Assembly: GCA_008330645.1 (NCBI GenBank)
Contig: VLTN01000021.1
Location: 310,001-374,000, forward strand
Reading direction: 5' to 3'
Source of the DNA: Cafeteria roenbergensis
Lineage: Eukaryota; Sar; Bigyra; Bicosoecida; Cafeteriaceae
Length of the DNA stretch: 64,000 nucleotides
The notes beneath the pieces are model-generated. The model was not told the origin of the DNA, ran no database searches, and saw nothing but the letters and a program-made list of their open reading frames with translations. The first letter of the stretch is position 1, and each line of letters starts with the position of its first letter. This document shows positions 9,927-51,953 of the stretch, one piece after another. Made by a program: the position numbers and the translations under genes.

Positions 9927-11285
9927 ATGGCGGGGGCTGGCCGCTTCCCCGCGTACCTTGAGTACGTCGGCAACGGGTCGAACAAGTTTTACTCCATCGA
10001 GCGGGATGGCACGCGAGGTGAGGCCGGTCAAGTTGCGCTTGCAATGTGCGCAGCAGCTTGGGTGCGACCCCAAGGCCTTGGTCCGCCTTTGCGTGGCCGT
10101 CGAGCAAGGCCCGCTCGCTCGCTGGGCCGCCCACCCGGTGGCTCCGGACCCTGGAATCCTGCACGCTGCTACGCAGTCGTGATGCGGAACGGCAGGAACG
10201 GATACGCAGGGGTCGGGCACGTCAAGAATTTCGCCTCGGATGCCCAGGCTGAGGGGTTCGCGCACAAGCAGCTTGCAGCCAAGCTGGGAAAGGGGTACAT
10301 TCTCCGTGAGCCGCCCGCTGGGTTCTGGGAGGGGGCTCCCGGCGGAGTGAACGTGGCTCCAGCCGCGCCCCGAGCTCCAAAGCGCAATCGCGACGAGTTC
10401 CCCGAGATATTCGTGCCTCCGCCGCCTCCACCGCGGCCCATAGTCGCTCCGGACGTGTTTGAACTTGGGGAGGCGGAGCCGCTCCCGCCGGCGCCGGCGG
10501 GGCCTGTTCGGCAGCGCCTCGGAGAGCCCGGCAGGCGCTTGGCGGTCCGCGGCAGCTCCGCACCGCGCGCAGCTGCCAAGGCGCTGAGCAAGGCCAAGGC
10601 AGTGGAGAAGCAGGCCGGGGCGGCGGCCGAAGCCCTATCGGGTGGACTGGCGCTCTTCCTGCGGCAGCCGCGCCAGTCTGGAGTGTGGTGGGCTTGCGCG
10701 CTGCCGGCAGGAGCTGCGCCAACGGTCACGGTTCGGCGGGGCGTGGCCGGCGACACGGGCCGTTGGGCCATCCACCACTTCGAAGACAGGGCGCAGGCGC
10801 GCGCCTTTTGCGTGGACAGGGCCAGACAGCTCCTGGCCAACGGCTTCAAGCCGGAGCTGCTCCCGCCCGAGCTGAGAGTCGCAGCCTTGTCGCACCATTC
10901 GCGCTTCGCCTCGCCGCTGCACGCCAGCACCCTCACGCCTCCGACTATGAGCTTCAGGGAGGTGGACGAGGTGCTGGACGGAGTCTGGGCGACGGCTGTG
11001 CCGGCTGCGAGGGCCAGGTCCAGCCAGACCTCCAAGAAGCGGGGAGGTCCGGCAAGGGGCAGGGCAGCGACTGGGGCCGCGGGGCGCAAGCCCAAGGCGG
11101 CGCCAAAGAAGGGGGCGCGTGCGTCGAGGGCGTCCCAGGAAAGCAACGCCAGCGACGACGACGACGACGACGGCAGCGAAAGTGATGGAGGGGGAAGGGG
11201 CGAGGGTGGCAAACCGGCCGGCGAGCCGGAGGCTGCCCCGTCGCCGCTGCCGCGCCGCCGGACTCGATCAAGGCGGGCCCGCTAG
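9927..11285 (+). CDS. Two-WGR-domain protein with basic/acidic tail
   Basis: Exons 9927-10017 and 10177-11285 join (phase 1, GTGAGG donor, CGCAG acceptor) into 399 residues. The start sits in a textbook context, GCCACCATGG. Splicing recreates the first WGR domain: NKFYSIERDGTR from exon 1 continues with VVMRNGRNGYAGVGHV and KNFAS, then ends with LGKGY; Trp of the name-giving motif is Asn. A second WGR-like domain (about residues 200-265) has WWACALP, TVTVRRGVAGDTGRW, a conserved FED and a terminal GFKP. WGR domains bind nucleic acid in PARP2-type enzymes and in bacterial MolR-like proteins; no PARP catalytic domain is present here. The C-terminus is Lys/Arg/Ala-rich, with a run of six Asp from GAC repeats and a final RRRTRSRRAR, consistent with a chromatin- or nucleus-bound protein (inference). 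The intron is 159 bases without a stop, so retention would insert 53 in-frame residues into the domain. Confidence 0.75.
   Translation: MAGAGRFPAYLEYVGNGSNKFYSIERDGTRGEAGQVALAMCAAAWVRPQGLGPPLRGRRARPARSLGRPPGGSGPWNPARCYAVVMRNGRNGYAGVGHVKNFASDAQAEGFAHKQLAAKLGKGYILREPPAGFWEGAPGGVNVAPAAPRAPKRNRDEFPEIFVPPPPPPRPIVAPDVFELGEAEPLPPAPAGPVRQRLGEPGRRLAVRGSSAPRAAAKALSKAKAVEKQAGAAAEALSGGLALFLRQPRQSGVWWACALPAGAAPTVTVRRGVAGDTGRWAIHHFEDRAQARAFCVDRARQLLANGFKPELLPPELRVAALSHHSRFASPLHASTLTPPTMSFREVDEVLDGVWATAVPAARARSSQTSKKRGGPARGRAATGAAGRKPKAAPKKGARASRASQESNASDDDDDDGSESDGGGRGEGGKPAGEPEAAPSPLPRRRTRSRRAR
11154..11171 (+). repeat. GAC microsatellite encoding Asp run
   Basis: Six GAC triplets encode six aspartates in the acidic tail of the WGR protein. 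Confidence 0.9.
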
Positions 11286-14380: not shown

Positions 14381-14609
14381 ATCTGGCACGGCACAGCCAC
14401 GTGTTCAACTGCTCTCTGCGCAGCTCCGTGCCGCGCGCGAGCTGTGCACAGCGTAGCTGCTCCGAATCCGCAGCCATCAGCCAAGTTTGGCGCGTCGTCG
14501 CCTCAGCCGTCGCATGGCACACACCTCATTCACATAGTGCTGGAGCCAGCACAGATATGCATGTGCTGCAATCACCGACCGGGATACGGCCCGGGTCGTT
14601 GCTGACACA

Positions 14610-14830
14610 CTGCAGTCCCCTGGCTGGCACAGCCCCAGCAAGCTGGAGGACGGACAGCCCGACGAACGGCAAGAACGCCACCCCCTCGCTGGGCAAAGCC
14701 GCGCGCACCGACAGCGAAAAACCGTCCGTTCTGCTCCGAGCGAAGGGGCCATGCCCACCGGACCCCCAAACAGCGCACGACGCTCAGCCCCTCGCGCCTC
14801 GGCCTGTGCGAAGGCCTTCGGGCCCGCCAC
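14610..14830 (-). pseudogene. Decayed 3' relict of the tandem cupin/JmjC gene
   Basis: This segment matches the last part of the downstream array genes, for example the stretch around 14640-14740 against 16776-16900, including the GAACGGCAAGAACGCCACCC block and the CTGCTCCGAGCGAAG block. About 130 bases present in the intact copies are missing in the middle, and the frame is broken. It marks an older, left-hand array member that has been lost. Confidence 0.7.
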
Positions 14831-15096
14831 ATGCACGCAACGAACCAGCTCGCTTGAATCCAATAACATCGGTGCCGAACCGAAGCCCCAACAGGCCCGG
14901 GCGGCAAAGGAGCCAATCGCACCAGTTGGCCATGGTCAGGCAGCCGAGGGAATCCTCGCGCTGCCCGACGCGAACGACATTGAACTGGGGACCTCTCCGG
15001 GCAACAGCCTCAACAACGGGGCGTTGCTTCGCCATGCTTTGTGACTCGTGCAGCCTGCTGTGGCCAAAGCTCTGTACTTGGCTGAGAAAGCAGCGC

Positions 15097-16506
15097 TCAC
15101 GCTGGCGGCCCGGCGTGGCAAGCGCAGTTCCCCGCCTGATACAGCCCGACCGAGTGAAGCGCAATCAGCCCCATGCGAGGGCTAGAAGCAACCCCCTCGC
15201 ACAATGACAGTCCGCGCACCGACAGCGAGACGCCGTCCGTTCTGCTCCGAGCGAAGTGCATCCACCCCTGCGGCACAAGCAGCGCGTCCCCAGCCTGCAG
15301 CCGCACGTGCGTCGCGCCCAGCAGGCCAGCCCCCAGCGCTGCGCTGGTCGCCTCGCACTCCACCACAGGCGACGCCTGACCGGCCCCCAGACTGCGCACG
15401 ACGTTCAGCCCCGCGCACGCGTCGCCCTGCGCGAAGGCCTCCGGGCTAGCCTCGCGCCCCGGAGCCCGCCAAATGGTGAACGGGTCCGTCAGCCCCGAGA
15501 TGGCCCCGTCGTCCCACTTGTCTGTCATGCCCAGCACAGCTGTGTCGTTGGGGTGGAACAGCCACACATCCTTCTCGCCCGCCAGCTGCACGAGCACGTT
15601 GAGCGGGTCGGCGTCCGCGTGCAGCCCGGTCCGGACGCCGGCCCTGCCCACCCACAGGTACTCCGTCATCATCATGGGCGACCTGGCCGCCCGATCGGCG
15701 CCAAGCCCGGCCCTCACCACCGCCGCCGAGATGGCCTGGGCCGAGGCAGCCAGGCGCGGGCTCCTGTGCAGCACCTCCATGTCCTCCGCGACGTACGCGT
15801 TGGGCTCGCCGCCCTCGCCGCTGGCCCGCCCGCCGGACAAGATGACGTCGCGCAGCGTGAGCGTCTTGATCCGGGTCGTGTGCTGCTCCGGGCAGCCCAC
15901 CTGCGCGTTCAGCTCAAACCCGGCCTCCTCCGACTCGAGCAGCGACTGCAGCGACCAGGGTGCCAGCGCGTCGGCCGATAGCACGCCACGCGCCACCCAC
16001 ACGCTCCCCCACCCGGTGCGCGCTCGGATGATGGGGGCCGCCTCGCCATCGGCCAGGTCGGCGCCCCTCGTCTCGAGCGGGGTGAGGGTCTCCGCGACCG
16101 ACTGGCCGCTCGCCCACCCCGCCGGCGCACTCGCGTTCCTCGGGAATGGGAACCACCACGGCAGCTGCCTGGAGAACTCGACCGGGGGCCCGAACGGGAT
16201 GGCGCTCTCGTAGCACACCTGGGGCGACTGCGCGGCCATGCCCAGCAGCACGGCAAGAACGCTGGCCCATCCCACGAGCAGGAGGCCCGGGGTCACGCCG
16301 CCCTTGCACACGCGCGAGAGCACGACGGGCGGCACCATCAGGGCGAGGAACATCGCAAGCGCGAACGTCGCAACCGGTAGGATGGCGCCGAGCGGGGCAA
16401 GCCTTGTGTGGCTCAGGTCGCGTTGCGCGCCGCCCCAGCGCAGCGCGGCGCCCAGGACGTTGACAACGGGAGCGACGACACCCCCCCAAAGGCTCTCTGC
16501 CGTCAT
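15097..16506 (-). CDS. Membrane-anchored cupin/JmjC-like Fe(II)/2OG oxygenase, array copy 1
   Basis: One exon, 469 residues. Two hydrophobic helices (about 39-64 and 72-93) anchor the N-terminus; the rest is a single soluble domain. At 283-316 it has YLWVGRAGVRTGLHADADPL followed by NVLVQLAGEKDVWLFHPND, and at 408-420 ALLVPQGWMHFAR. This is the pattern of cupin_8/JmjC hydroxylases: HxD (His296, Asp298) plus a distal His417 would bind Fe(II). Relatives such as FIH and JMJD5 hydroxylate protein side chains with 2-oxoglutarate; the substrate here is unknown. With the anchor N-terminal, the catalytic domain probably faces one membrane side as a tethered unit (inference). Copy 1 is nearly identical to copy 2 in the body but its last 45 codons differ (RGLSLCEGVASSPRMGLIAL), before both end in GLYQAGNCACHAG; copy 1 adds PPA. 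No intron is needed. It is the leftmost intact member of the array. Confidence 0.75.
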   Translation of the reverse strand: MTAESLWGGVVAPVVNVLGAALRWGGAQRDLSHTRLAPLGAILPVATFALAMFLALMVPPVVLSRVCKGGVTPGLLLVGWASVLAVLLGMAAQSPQVCYESAIPFGPPVEFSRQLPWWFPFPRNASAPAGWASGQSVAETLTPLETRGADLADGEAAPIIRARTGWGSVWVARGVLSADALAPWSLQSLLESEEAGFELNAQVGCPEQHTTRIKTLTLRDVILSGGRASGEGGEPNAYVAEDMEVLHRSPRLAASAQAISAAVVRAGLGADRAARSPMMMTEYLWVGRAGVRTGLHADADPLNVLVQLAGEKDVWLFHPNDTAVLGMTDKWDDGAISGLTDPFTIWRAPGREASPEAFAQGDACAGLNVVRSLGAGQASPVVECEATSAALGAGLLGATHVRLQAGDALLVPQGWMHFARSRTDGVSLSVRGLSLCEGVASSPRMGLIALHSVGLYQAGNCACHAGPPA

Positions 16507-19500
16507 GGCGGTGTTGCCGCCGGCCGTGGGCCTTGCGGCTGTGCGTCAGACTGTTCAACCTCGGCGCTGCTGCGCTCTTGAGTGCCTGCGGCAACAGCGC
16601 GGCTCTGTCAACGGAGTGGCCAGCCACACGCCCCTGCAACAGCTGATGCACACAACAAGCAAAGCACACACGAGCGGATGCAATACGAGACAGCACCCCG
16701 GCCAAGTCGCGCCGATGCCCACGCCCTCTACCCGGCGTGGCAAGCGCAGTTCCCCGCCTGATACAGCCCAAGCAAGTGGAGGACGGACAGCCCCACGAAC
16801 GGCAAGAACGCCACCCCCTCGCAGGGCGAAGTCGCGCGCACCGACAGAGAGACGCCGTCCGCTCTGCTCCGAGCGAAGTGCATCCACCCCTGCGGCACAA
16901 GCAGCGCGTCCCCAGCCTGCAGCCGCACGTGCGTCGCGCCCAGCAGGCCAGCCCCCAGCGCTGCGCTGGTCGCCTCGCACTCCACCACAGGCGACGCCTG
17001 ACCGGCCCCCAGACTGCGCACGACGTTCAGCCCCGCGCACGCGTCGCCCTGCGCGAAGGCCTCCGGGCTAGCCTCGCGCCCCGGAGCCCGCCAAATGGTG
17101 AACGGGTCCGTCAGCCCCAAGATGGCCCCGTCGTCCCACTTGTCTGTCATGCCCAGCACAGCTGTGTCGTTGGGGTGGAACAGCCACACATCCTTCTCGC
17201 CCGCCAGCTGCACGAGCACGTTGAGCGGGTCGGCGTCCGCGTGCAGCCCGGTCCGGACGCCGGCCCTGCCCACCCACAGGTACTCCGTCATCATCATGGG
17301 CGACCTGGCCGCCCGATCGGCGCCAAGCCCGGCCCTCACCACCGCCGCCGAGATGGCCTGGGCCGAGGCAGCCAGGCGCGGGCTCCTGTGCAGCACCTCC
17401 ATGTCCTCCGCGACGTACGCGTTGGGCTCGCCGCCCTCGCCGCTGGCCCGCCCGCCGGACAAGATGACGTCGCGCAGCGTGAGCGTCTTGATCCGGGTCG
17501 TGTGCTGCTCCGGGCAGCCCACCTGCGCGTTCAGCTCAAACCCGGCCTCCTCCGACTCGAGCAGCGACTGCAGCGACCAGGGTGCCAGCGCGTCGGCCGA
17601 TAGCACGCCACGCGCCACCCACACGCTCCCCCACCCGGTGCGCGCTCGGATGATGGGGGCCGCCTCGCCATCGGCCAGGTCGGCGCCCCTCGTCTCGAGC
17701 GGGGTGAGGGTCTCCGCGACCGACTGGCCGCTCGCCCACCCCGCCGGCGCACTCGCGTTCCTCGGGAACGGGAACCACCACGGCAGCTGCCTGGAGAACT
17801 CGACCGGGGGCCCGAACGGGATGGCGCTCTCGTAGCACACCTGGGGCGACTGCGCGGCCATGCCCAACAGCACGGCAAGAACGCTGGCCCATCCCACGAG
17901 CAGGAGGCCCGGGGTCACGCCGCCCTTGCACACGCGCGAGAGCACGACGGGCGGCACCATCAGGGCGAGGAACATCGCAAGCGCGAACGTCGCAACCGGT
18001 AGGATGGCGCCGAGCGGGGCAAGCCTTGTGTGGCTCAGGTCGCGTTGCGCGCCGCCCCAGCGCAGCGCGGCGCCCAGGACGTTGACAACGGGAGCGACGA
18101 CACCCCCCCAAAGGCTCTCTGCCGTCATGGCGGTGTTGCCGCCGGCCGTGGGCCTTGCGGCTGTGCGTCAGACTGTTCAACCTCGGCGCTGCTGCGCTCT
18201 TGAGTGCCTGCGGCAACAGCGCGGCTCTGTCAACGGAGTGGCCAGCCACACGCCCCTGCAACAGCTGATGCACACAACAAGCAAAGCACACACGAGCGGA
18301 TGCAATACGAGACAGCACCCCGGCCAAGTCGCGCCGATGCCCACGCCCTCTACCCGGCGTGGCAAGCGCAGTTCCCCGCCTGATACAGCCCAAGCAAGTG
18401 GAGGACGGACAGCCCCACGAACGGCAAGAACGCCACCCCCTCGCAGGGCGAAGTCGCGCGCACCGACAGCGAGACGCCGTCCGCTCTGCTCCGAGCGAAG
18501 TGCATCCACCCCTGCGGCACAAGCAGCGCGTCCCCAGCCTGCAGCCGCACGTGCGTCGCGCCCAGCAGGCCAGCCCCCAGCGCTGCGCTGGTCGCCTCGC
18601 ACTCCACCACAGGCGACGCCTGACGGCCCCCAGACTGCGCACGACGTTCAGCCCCGCGCACGCGTCGCCCTGCGCGAAGGCCTCCGGGCTAGCCTCGCGC
18701 CCCGGAGCCCGCCAAATGGTGAACGGGTCCGTCAGCCCCGAGATGGCCCCGTCGTCCCACTTGTCTGTCATGCCCAGCACAGCTGTGTCGTTGGGGTGGA
18801 ACAGCCACACATCCTTCTCGCCCGCCAGCTGCACGAGCACGTTGAGCGGGTCGGCGTCCGCGTGCAGCCCGGTCCGGACGCCGGCCCTGCCCACCCACAG
18901 GTACTCCGTCATCATCATGGGCGACCTGGCCGCCCGATCGGCGCCAAGCCCGGCCCTCACCACCGCCGCCGAGATGGCCTGGGCCGAGGCAGCCAGGCGC
19001 GGGCTCCTGTGCAGCACCTCCATGTCCTCCGCGACGTACGCGTTGGGCTCGCCGCCCTCGCCGCTGGCCCGCCCGCCGGACAAGATGACGTCGCGCAGCG
19101 TGAGCGTCTTGATCCGGGTCGTGTGCTGCTCCGGGCAGCCCACCTGCGCGTTCAGCTCAAACCCGGCCTCCTCCGACTCGAGCAGCGACTGCAGCGACCA
19201 GGGTGCCAGCGCGTCGGCCGATAGCACGCCACGCGCCACCCACACGCTCCCCCACCCGGTGCGCGCTCGGATGATGGGGGCCGCCTCGCCATCGGCCAGG
19301 CCGGCGCCCCTCGTCTCGAGCGGGGTGAGGGTCTCCGCGACCGACTGGCCGCTCGCCCACCCCGCCGGCGCACTCGCGTTCCTCGGGAACGGGAACCACC
19401 ACGGCAGCTGCCTGGAGAACTCGACCGGGGGCCCGAACGGGATGGCGCTCTCGTAGCACACCTGGGGCGACTGCGCGGCCATGCCCAGCAGCACGGCAAG

Positions 19501-19600
19501 AACGCTGGCCCATCCCACGAGCAGGAGGCCCGGGGTCACGCCGCCCTTGCACACGCGCGGGAGCACGACGGGCGGCACCATCAGGGCGAGGAACATCGCA
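15115..19600. repeat. Tandem array of cupin/JmjC gene units, period 1,622 bp
   Basis: Equivalent points in copies 1 and 2 lie 1,622 bases apart, and in copies 2 and 3 they lie 1,622 or 1,621 apart because copy 3 lacks one base. The repeated unit includes the gene and about 220 bases of upstream flank (16507-16737 against 18129-18358). The bodies differ by only scattered single bases. Similarity to copy 3 falls off sharply near 19600, inside the N-terminal coding part. Confidence 0.9.
16728..18128 (-). CDS. Membrane-anchored cupin/JmjC-like oxygenase, array copy 2
   Basis: One exon, 466 residues, identical to copy 1 over nearly all of the anchor and catalytic domain, including the HADAD and GWMHFARS metal-site motifs. 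Visible differences include Ser to Leu in the WDDGAI-GLTDP segment (17120) and several silent changes. Its C-terminus, RATSPCEGVAFLPFVGLSVL then HLLGLYQAGNCACHAG, forms a third hydrophobic stretch and agrees with copy 3 and with the left relict, so it is probably the ancestral form of the tail. The upstream flank is duplicated with the gene, so copies 1 and 2 should share promoter sequence. Function as described for the family in copy 1; the substrate is unknown. Confidence 0.75.
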   Translation of the reverse strand: MTAESLWGGVVAPVVNVLGAALRWGGAQRDLSHTRLAPLGAILPVATFALAMFLALMVPPVVLSRVCKGGVTPGLLLVGWASVLAVLLGMAAQSPQVCYESAIPFGPPVEFSRQLPWWFPFPRNASAPAGWASGQSVAETLTPLETRGADLADGEAAPIIRARTGWGSVWVARGVLSADALAPWSLQSLLESEEAGFELNAQVGCPEQHTTRIKTLTLRDVILSGGRASGEGGEPNAYVAEDMEVLHRSPRLAASAQAISAAVVRAGLGADRAARSPMMMTEYLWVGRAGVRTGLHADADPLNVLVQLAGEKDVWLFHPNDTAVLGMTDKWDDGAILGLTDPFTIWRAPGREASPEAFAQGDACAGLNVVRSLGAGQASPVVECEATSAALGAGLLGATHVRLQAGDALLVPQGWMHFARSRADGVSLSVRATSPCEGVAFLPFVGLSVLHLLGLYQAGNCACHAG

Positions 19601-19749
19601 AGCGCGAACATTGCTGCCGGTAGCAGGACGCCGAGCGGCCCGAGGATTGGCTCTTGAAGGGAGCGCTGCGCGCTCCCCCAGCGCAACCCATTCCCGGCGA
19701 TGCTCACTGCCGAGCTCACGAGGTACCCCAAGAGGTCCTCGGCTCGCAT
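18350..19749 (-). pseudogene. Cupin/JmjC-like oxygenase, array copy 3, frameshifted
   Basis: Copy 3 begins at ATG 19749 with a clearly homologous but diverged N-terminus (MRAEDLLGYLVSSAVSIAG, then LRWGSAQRSLQEPILGPLGV), and becomes almost identical to copies 1 and 2 from about residue 50 on. At 18622-18623 the sequence reads GCCTGACGG where copies 1 and 2 read GCCTGACCGG. The missing C throws translation out of frame after NVVRSLGA, before the distal metal-ligand His and the C-terminal tail. The remaining codons are intact in the shifted frame down to 18350. Either this copy is a young pseudogene or the base is an assembly error in a high-identity repeat. It would otherwise encode about 466 residues. 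Confidence 0.7.
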
Positions 19750-20049
19750 GGCAACGCCCCAGCGCCGGGCCGTGCGGACTTGGCACGCGCTGTGCTTGTG
19801 CCACCGGAGGGCAGAGCCTGCAACACCCGGCTCGGCTCTCCGTCGCATGGCTTGCGTCTCAGATTGTCATGCGACCCAGGAAGCCGCTTCTTTTCGCACG
19901 CAAGCCCTTTGCCATCGCGACACGCAAGGCGCCACGATCTCACACTGCGCCACGTGAGGCAGGCGACTGGCCCTCCTCCGCTGCCAAGCAAACGGCGCGT
20001 GTGCGGCACGAGCAGCGCTGCACGCCCGGGAAGGCTGCGCGGCCAAGCC

Positions 20050-20287
20050 CACGGTCGCACAACAAGCACGCCTGCCCATCCTACGAACAAAGGGCCCGGG
20101 GCCACGCTGCCCGTGCACACGCGAGAGCGCGAGGCGGGAGATCGTAGCAAGGCGCCAAGCGACCCAAGCACGAGCACCGCAACCGGGCCAAGCGGAGAAG
20201 GCACTGAAGTGCGCAGCTCGTGTTGCGCGCCGCCCAGCGCAGCTCGAGGCCGAAGCCCCTGAGGATGGGGGAGGCCGAGCGCCCCAT
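20050..20287 (-). pseudogene. Decayed 5' relict of the cupin/JmjC gene
   Basis: Reading leftwards from ATG 20287, the start MGRSASPILRGFGLELRWAA aligns with the first 25 residues of the array genes. After a frame break, SRVCTGSVAPGPLFVGWAGV aligns with SRVCKGGVTPGLLLVGWASV. The nucleotide match to 17876-18070 is clear but gapped. It represents the anchor region of a fourth, right-hand copy. Confidence 0.7.
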
Positions 20288-51808: not shown

Positions 51809-51953
51809 TGTGCCAGGAGGGCTTCGATCCCTCGTAATTCGCGTGTCTCAAGTGGGGCTCGGCCCCCGAAGATAGATTTTACTGGCCCGAGTCTCGAACT
51901 CGGACCGCATACTCTATAAGCACGAAGCATTAACCAGGCTATGCTACTGGCAC
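51809..51953 (-). tRNA. tRNA-Ile (anticodon UAU) with a 68-base intron
   Basis: Reading the minus strand from 51953, GTGCCAG pairs perfectly with CTGGCAC at the 3' end (51810-51816), followed by discriminator A. The D-arm is GCAT, loop AGCCTGGTTA, ATGC. The anticodon arm begins TCGTG with loop CTTATA (anticodon TAT) and resumes after the intron with A then CACG. The T-arm is GAGGG, loop ATCGAAG, CCCTC. The intron is 51847-51914, in the standard place one base after the anticodon. Eukaryotic tRNA-Ile(UAU) genes typically carry an intron with the same CTTATA loop, which supports the identity. Oddities: the variable loop is about seven bases, one anticodon-stem pair is mismatched, and position 54 is A. 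The intron itself contains a T-arm-like hairpin. It decodes the AUA isoleucine codon, presumably rare in this GC-rich genome. Confidence 0.75.

Follow-up and report, generated by a model that had tools for sequence, protein, structure and literature searches.

What is encoded by three near-identical direct repeats in the genome of Cafeteria roenbergensis, and how did the repeats come about? They lie on the minus strand at 14.6-20.3 kb of a 64,000-nucleotide stretch of contig VLTN01000021.1 (hereafter the window, C21:310001-374000 in our numbering), with spacings of 1622 and 1621 bases, and were compared with a genome of 36,303,456 bases in 167 contigs. Our answer is that the repeats most likely represent the gene of a membrane-tethered JmjC-type hydroxylase residing in an unstable tandem array. 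In its fuller form, which we consider probable, the gene encodes a membrane-anchored Fe(II)/2-oxoglutarate oxygenase of the JMJD5/TYW5/FIH class (Cupin_8), was multiplied by tandem duplication and shaped by conversion or unequal crossover, and gave rise from a two-gene ancestor to three-copy and one-copy versions of the locus.

The array and its encoded protein

Read along the minus strand the copies follow each other in the order C, B, A, each built from a head, a core and a tail. Copy A (15097..16506; head type x, tail type A) and copy B (16728..18128; head type x, tail type x) are intact open reading frames (ORFs) of 469 and 466 amino acids. Copy C (about 18350..19749; head type C, tail type x) has one base fewer than A and B near 18623, where the family frame is lost. 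The 221-base spacers between C and B (18129..18349) and between B and A (16507..16727) are identical to each other, and therefore the extra copy looks recent. Self-BLAST also revealed two decayed relicts on the minus strand. The 3' relict (14612..14823) is tail-like at 14612-14745 (88-89% identity to the tails of B and C) and core-like at 14757-14823 (84%), while the 5' relict (20020..20246) resembles the head and hydrophobic region, with about 70% identity to the heads of A and B. These results bear out a preliminary description of the locus, which had reported two intact genes and one frameshifted copy with a 1,622-base period, a decayed 3' piece on the left and a decayed 5' piece on the right. 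No further copy was found in the window by self-BLAST, nor elsewhere in the genome by protein and DNA search except on a second contig, C143 (these counts are lower bounds); the protein search at E up to 1e-3 returned 11 matches, all on C21 and C143. Long ORFs on the opposite strand are taken as shadows because the codon-position GC of copy A (71/56/89%) is as in a coding frame.

The Cupin_8 profile PF13621 matches residues 276-430 of copy A (15217..15681, minus strand) with an E value of 7e-13 and 49.5 bits against a cut-off of 27.4. Of the two profiles proposed earlier for checking the protein only this one is significant, as the JmjC profile PF02373 remains under its cut-off (12.4 versus 24). 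Within the match, which includes W285, T293 and N303, the residues H296, D298 and H417 form a putative HxD...H metal triad that is invariant in our alignment A4, and K312 occupies the G-x-K position of the alignment as the putative 2-oxoglutarate lysine; the frames of both A and B retain the site residues. By analogy with known enzymes the triad would bind iron, and K312 and its neighbours would bind 2-oxoglutarate. The predicted model adopts a double-stranded beta-helix fold, with JMJD5/KDM8, TYW5, JMJD7 and FIH as the best solved matches. A search of the PDB with the single sequence returned only TYW5 (E 0.65) and a colicin immunity protein (E 1.2), and NCBIfam gave no match to the array protein.

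Ahead of this domain, residues 45-63 and 74-92 of copy A form two hydrophobic segments of 19 residues each, with mean Kyte-Doolittle values of 2.35 and 2.19, joined by a 10-residue loop (16231..16374, minus strand, coordinates derived from the residue numbers). Both elements of the preliminary description, two N-terminal membrane helices and an HxD...H cupin_8/JmjC fold, are thus recovered, the one as this hydrophobic pair and the other through the significant PF13621 match, the structural matches and the aligned metal-site residues. Basic and acidic residues number 3 and 2 in the head, 2 and 0 in the loop, and 1 and 2 after the pair. We favour a lumenal position of the catalytic domain only slightly; the charge count leans weakly the same way and we do not rely on it. 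At the other end of the protein, the C-terminal tail (residues 432-469; 15100..15213, minus strand) carries an LH..GLY..NCACH signature that is kept in both tail types despite about 32% nucleotide divergence. We infer membrane insertion, activity and substrate as follows: a short head, probably an amphipathic helix, together with a hairpin of two transmembrane helices would hold the beta-helix domain at the membrane, and this domain would most likely hydroxylate a protein, a peptide or an amino-acid-bearing glycoconjugate.

Uniform core, divergent ends and a second version of the locus

Across a core of about 1144 sites, every pair among the four copies on C21 and C143 differs at only 4-5 sites (0.3-0.4%). 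Divergence is far higher at the ends, about 42% of nucleotides between the two head types and 32-34% between the two tail types. With ends so divergent and a core so uniform, the two gene types must be old and the core homogenised by conversion or repeated unequal exchange. The nonsynonymous (dN) and synonymous (dS) divergences are 0.48 and 0.99 for the head (codons 2-45; dN/dS 0.48, bootstrap range 0.21-0.99) and 0.28 and 0.72 for the tail (33 codons; dN/dS 0.39, bootstrap range 0.16-0.95).

Contig C143 (15,457 bases) is collinear with two parts of the window, 24302 to 18353 followed by 16395 to 5632, and it has one copy where C21 has three, so the copy number differs between two assembled versions of the region. 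The head of the C143 copy differs from that of C at 1 of 303 sites and from those of A and B at 120 of 287, and its tail differs from that of A at 3 of 171 sites and from those of B and C at 45 of 132; the C143 copy thus combines head C with tail A. The contig continues into unique flanking sequence for about 4 kb on one side and 9 kb on the other, with substitutions present there. Insertion or deletion (indel) events relative to the window number 20 in the left alignment and 45 in the right, with 52 of these 65 affecting one base and two events inside the C143 copy counted in both alignments. Some indels change the frame of the C143 copy. The pattern looks like poorly polished long-read sequence, and both the one-base break in copy C and the indels of the C143 copy may be assembly errors.

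We propose that the copies were probably born by tandem duplication, and that unequal crossover and gene conversion would hold the core uniform with the two gene types retaining their own heads and tails. Starting from a two-gene ancestor with head C and tail x in one gene and head x and tail A in the other, a single unequal crossover within the core would yield exactly one-copy and three-copy products. The single copy on C143 looks like the matching product of one such exchange. More generally, we infer that the one- and three-copy versions are products of unequal exchange, which does not require the same event for both. Conversion together with unequal exchange is enough to account for the copies, and an adaptive reading of their amplification is no longer needed: the earlier suggestion of selection for dosage or for variation is not supported, given cores that vary by 0.3-0.4%, one broken copy and a collinear contig with one copy. 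A single-copy locus, the result that would have spoken against an array, is found in one assembled version (C143) and not in the other (C21).

Further differences between the two versions were observed. Beside the array's 3' end, at window positions 14500-15499, substitutions between C21 and C143 are clustered: the two 500-base intervals hold 15 and 5 of the 44 substitutions of the left alignment. When the 3' relict is compared with tail x, identity is 92.5% for that of C143 and 88.8% for the window's own, as if the flank had been touched by ectopic exchange. At 11152 the versions differ by 21 bases (seven codons) in the acidic run of a WGR-domain ORF (9927-11285).

Relatives in the genome, bacteria and viruses

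The genome contains 32 PF13621 matches at E up to 0.01, including the four array copies (three on C21, one on C143). Outside the array we found no close paralogue among 26 extracted own Cupin_8 frames, which include pieces or copies of single genes; the best of them (L015) matches at 3.8e-6. Two frames, L039 (C43:294942-295418) and L040 (C58:7306-7782), have identical Cupin_8 translations, representing a leftover allele contig or a recent duplication. Three adjacent matches in the same orientation (L017, L030 and L031) lie at C20:283178-288375, and the L031 frame starts with a signal-peptide-like stretch, so that the secretory route may also be taken by other JmjC-type proteins encoded in the genome.

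To collect bacterial relatives, three own paralogues were aligned (A2) and this alignment was used to scan prokaryote genomes; the best 80 of the 221 relatives found were kept and gave 79 usable frames. Seven of these (L065, L072, L087, L093, L095, L106 and L118, from Bacteroidota, Planctomycetota and Archangium) share a C-terminal LH..GLY..NC.C[HC] with the array, and the alignments show that the stretch from the last metal histidine into the tail is also common to them. The signature is present in 2 of 2 array copies, 7 of 79 bacterial frames and 0 of 26 own frames, counts that do not amount to a blind test as the pattern was composed after inspecting the seven sequences. When the 79 frames are ranked by their phmmer match to the array, six of the seven take the first six places (6.6e-17 to 9.3e-13); the seventh, L093, ranks sixteenth (4.4e-7). 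A profile search of further genomes yielded 24 frames, 7 of them the source genes again, and a looser pattern is matched by 22 of them, including 15 of the 17 that are not source genes, in a set that is not blind because the subfamily profile includes the tail. Sixteen of the fitting frames end in CxCH and six in CFCC. The subfamily is patchy: counting the source genomes (a Seonamhaeicola, a Planctomycetota bacterium and an Archangium), it occurs in 1 of 395 genomes sampled from G001's phylum (E up to 1e-60) and, with the limit at 1e-50, in 1 of 392 from G002's phylum, 2 of 195 from G003's phylum and 17 of 199 from G001's family. A membrane segment is absent from all 24 bacterial frames, scanned between the first Met and residue 100 of the match (highest Kyte-Doolittle mean 0.75), versus two in the array. 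We describe the array as a relative of this bacterial subfamily and not as an ordinary member. Viral contigs gave no match with copy A as the query; with alignment A3 they gave 35 pattern-matching stretches, none coding for a relative, and with A2 one remote locus (L125).

Gene neighbours were scanned for 14 bacterial subfamily genes with at least one such neighbour, these having been chosen by eye before the Pfam scans and without a background rate. Seven of the 14 have an Acetyltransf_6/FemAB-like (GNAT) gene beside them or close by (two in L138, and L140, L143, L149, L152 and L157). Other neighbours are glycosyltransferases on both sides of L155, an MBOAT acyltransferase at L146 and an asparagine synthase at L156; L139, L141, L142 and L153 have no neighbour of these kinds among the genes scanned. 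These neighbourhoods suggest, no more, that the bacterial subfamily acts with amino-acid-decorated envelope polymers, and a similar role for the protist enzyme is speculation. A conceivable but unlikely extension would make the array the eukaryotic, membrane-tethered offshoot of an oxygenase subfamily that still lacks a name and that works in bacteria with GNAT/FemAB-like aminoacyl transferases and polysaccharide genes; in Cafeteria it would hydroxylate amino-acid-bearing surface or secretory glycoconjugates, and the diploid would keep both reciprocal products of a single unequal crossover. As a separate observation, one Flavobacteriaceae genome (G001:C4; L138 4026-11947, L139 12359-13297) carries three genes of the subfamily in a region of about 27 kb. 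Two of these sit among five or more Acetyltransf_6 genes, and an ATP-grasp protein and an MBOAT gene are encoded in the vicinity.

Alternative explanations and known systems

Several results weigh against a membrane-anchored oxygenase that is tied to the bacterial subfamily and shaped by unequal exchange. The predicted model has a mean predicted local distance difference test score (pLDDT) of 62, with helices 37-57 and 73-87 at low confidence, and to our knowledge no enzyme of the tail-signature subfamily has been characterised, so that activity is assigned by analogy. The whole subfamily profile scores three own Cupin_8 frames above the array, whose advantage is limited to the tail part of the profile (31-35 bits versus 14 with a profile of other bacteria). 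A tree of 92 rows gives the array no firm position. A tree of 32 rows, picked after the larger one left the array unplaced, joins it to the subfamily at 94/86, a value that is not starred, and the alternatives in which the array groups with L015 (p 0.065) or with the full set of seven own rows (p 0.103) are not rejected. Purifying selection on the heads and tails is only weakly shown by the sequence comparison, and C143, with its many one-base indels relative to the window, could in principle be a collapsed array.

Some of these results lend themselves to other explanations. A soluble or peripheral JmjC protein, or one whose hydrophobic N-terminus is a targeting signal cleaved on import, would fit the low confidence of the helices and the bacterial relatives without a hydrophobic segment; we consider it unlikely, as two strong 19-residue segments with a 10-residue loop exceed a signal peptide, and acidic residues near the start are unlike a mitochondrial presequence. 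An error of assembly, by which a tandem repeat was expanded into the three-copy structure or collapsed into the one-copy contig, is also improbable in our judgment. The genome report (PMC6972860) states that C. roenbergensis appears diploid, that redundant allelic contigs were taken out with Redundans and that polishing was done by Racon with reads mapped back; this polishing, a moderate long-read depth (45x if the strain is BVI) and the indels of C143 lend the explanation some substance. Against it, copies A, B and C each have private substitutions, C143 reaches unique flank with substitutions on both sides, and its combination of a C head with an A tail is consistent with a real exchange. 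The broken frame of copy C, the frame-changing indels of the C143 copy and the decayed relicts flanking the array could instead mark a decaying, non-functional family kept by drift. We regard this as very unlikely, given that the reading frames of A and B remain open over 469 and 466 codons and retain the site residues, that both tail types preserve LH..GLY..NCACH at such nucleotide divergence, and that the frame breaks may be sequence errors.

A membrane-tethered hydroxylase in an exchanging array remains the reading that we prefer. It provides an example, open to testing, of a membrane-located JmjC-type hydroxylase in a protist with four strains sequenced, and the C-terminal signature connects the protein with the bacterial subfamily, the gene neighbours of which hint at polymers of the cell envelope. 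The locus itself is a clean record of unequal exchange, with two gene types that have different ends, a uniform core and one- and three-copy versions. Its surroundings (window GC about 71%, mean of 2-kb values) include eukaryotic genes for a proteasome subunit (PSD13_N and PCI), a cyclophilin and the WGR-domain protein. No pointer to a virus or mobile-element origin of the array was seen nearby, although no systematic search was made. Elsewhere in the window, at 51879-51952 on the minus strand, ARAGORN calls a tRNA-Tyr with the odd anticodon ata, where an intron may have misled the caller.

Among open-licence PMC literature we found nothing relevant joining Cafeteria with JmjC or 2-oxoglutarate hydroxylases, and nothing related by title joining Cupin_8 with transmembrane. 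JMJD5/KDM8, TYW5, JMJD7 and FIH share with the array protein the double-stranded beta-helix core, the HxD...H site and the 2-oxoglutarate lysine. They differ in sequence (13-20% identity among the matches listed) and in that the hydrophobic pair belongs to the array protein, whose domain is also longer (model residues 157-433 versus 187-416 in JMJD5). The combination of membrane helices with a JmjC fold, called unusual in the preliminary description, loses some of its novelty with human JMJD8. PMC5684140 describes it as a JmjC protein of the endoplasmic reticulum lumen whose uncleaved signal peptide may anchor it, and thus as a JmjC domain likewise tied to a membrane compartment via an N-terminal hydrophobic stretch; that same description sets it apart by a signal-peptide-type N-terminus, in contrast to the array's pair of segments. 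The bacterial LH..GLY..NCxCH Cupin_8 subfamily has the core motifs and the tail signature in common with the array, some bacterial members ending in NCFCC, and differs in length, with 23 of 24 frames having 273-319 residues from stop to stop and one having 433. Tandem arrays of Trypanosoma brucei under concerted evolution, as presented in PMC1855330, are similarly shaped by duplication and conversion, whereas here the two exchange products seem to be carried by the two haplotypes of a diploid. Both the class of enzyme and the type of array are already known; what is new is the anchor joined to the tail-signature subfamily, together with the reciprocal-looking haplotypes.
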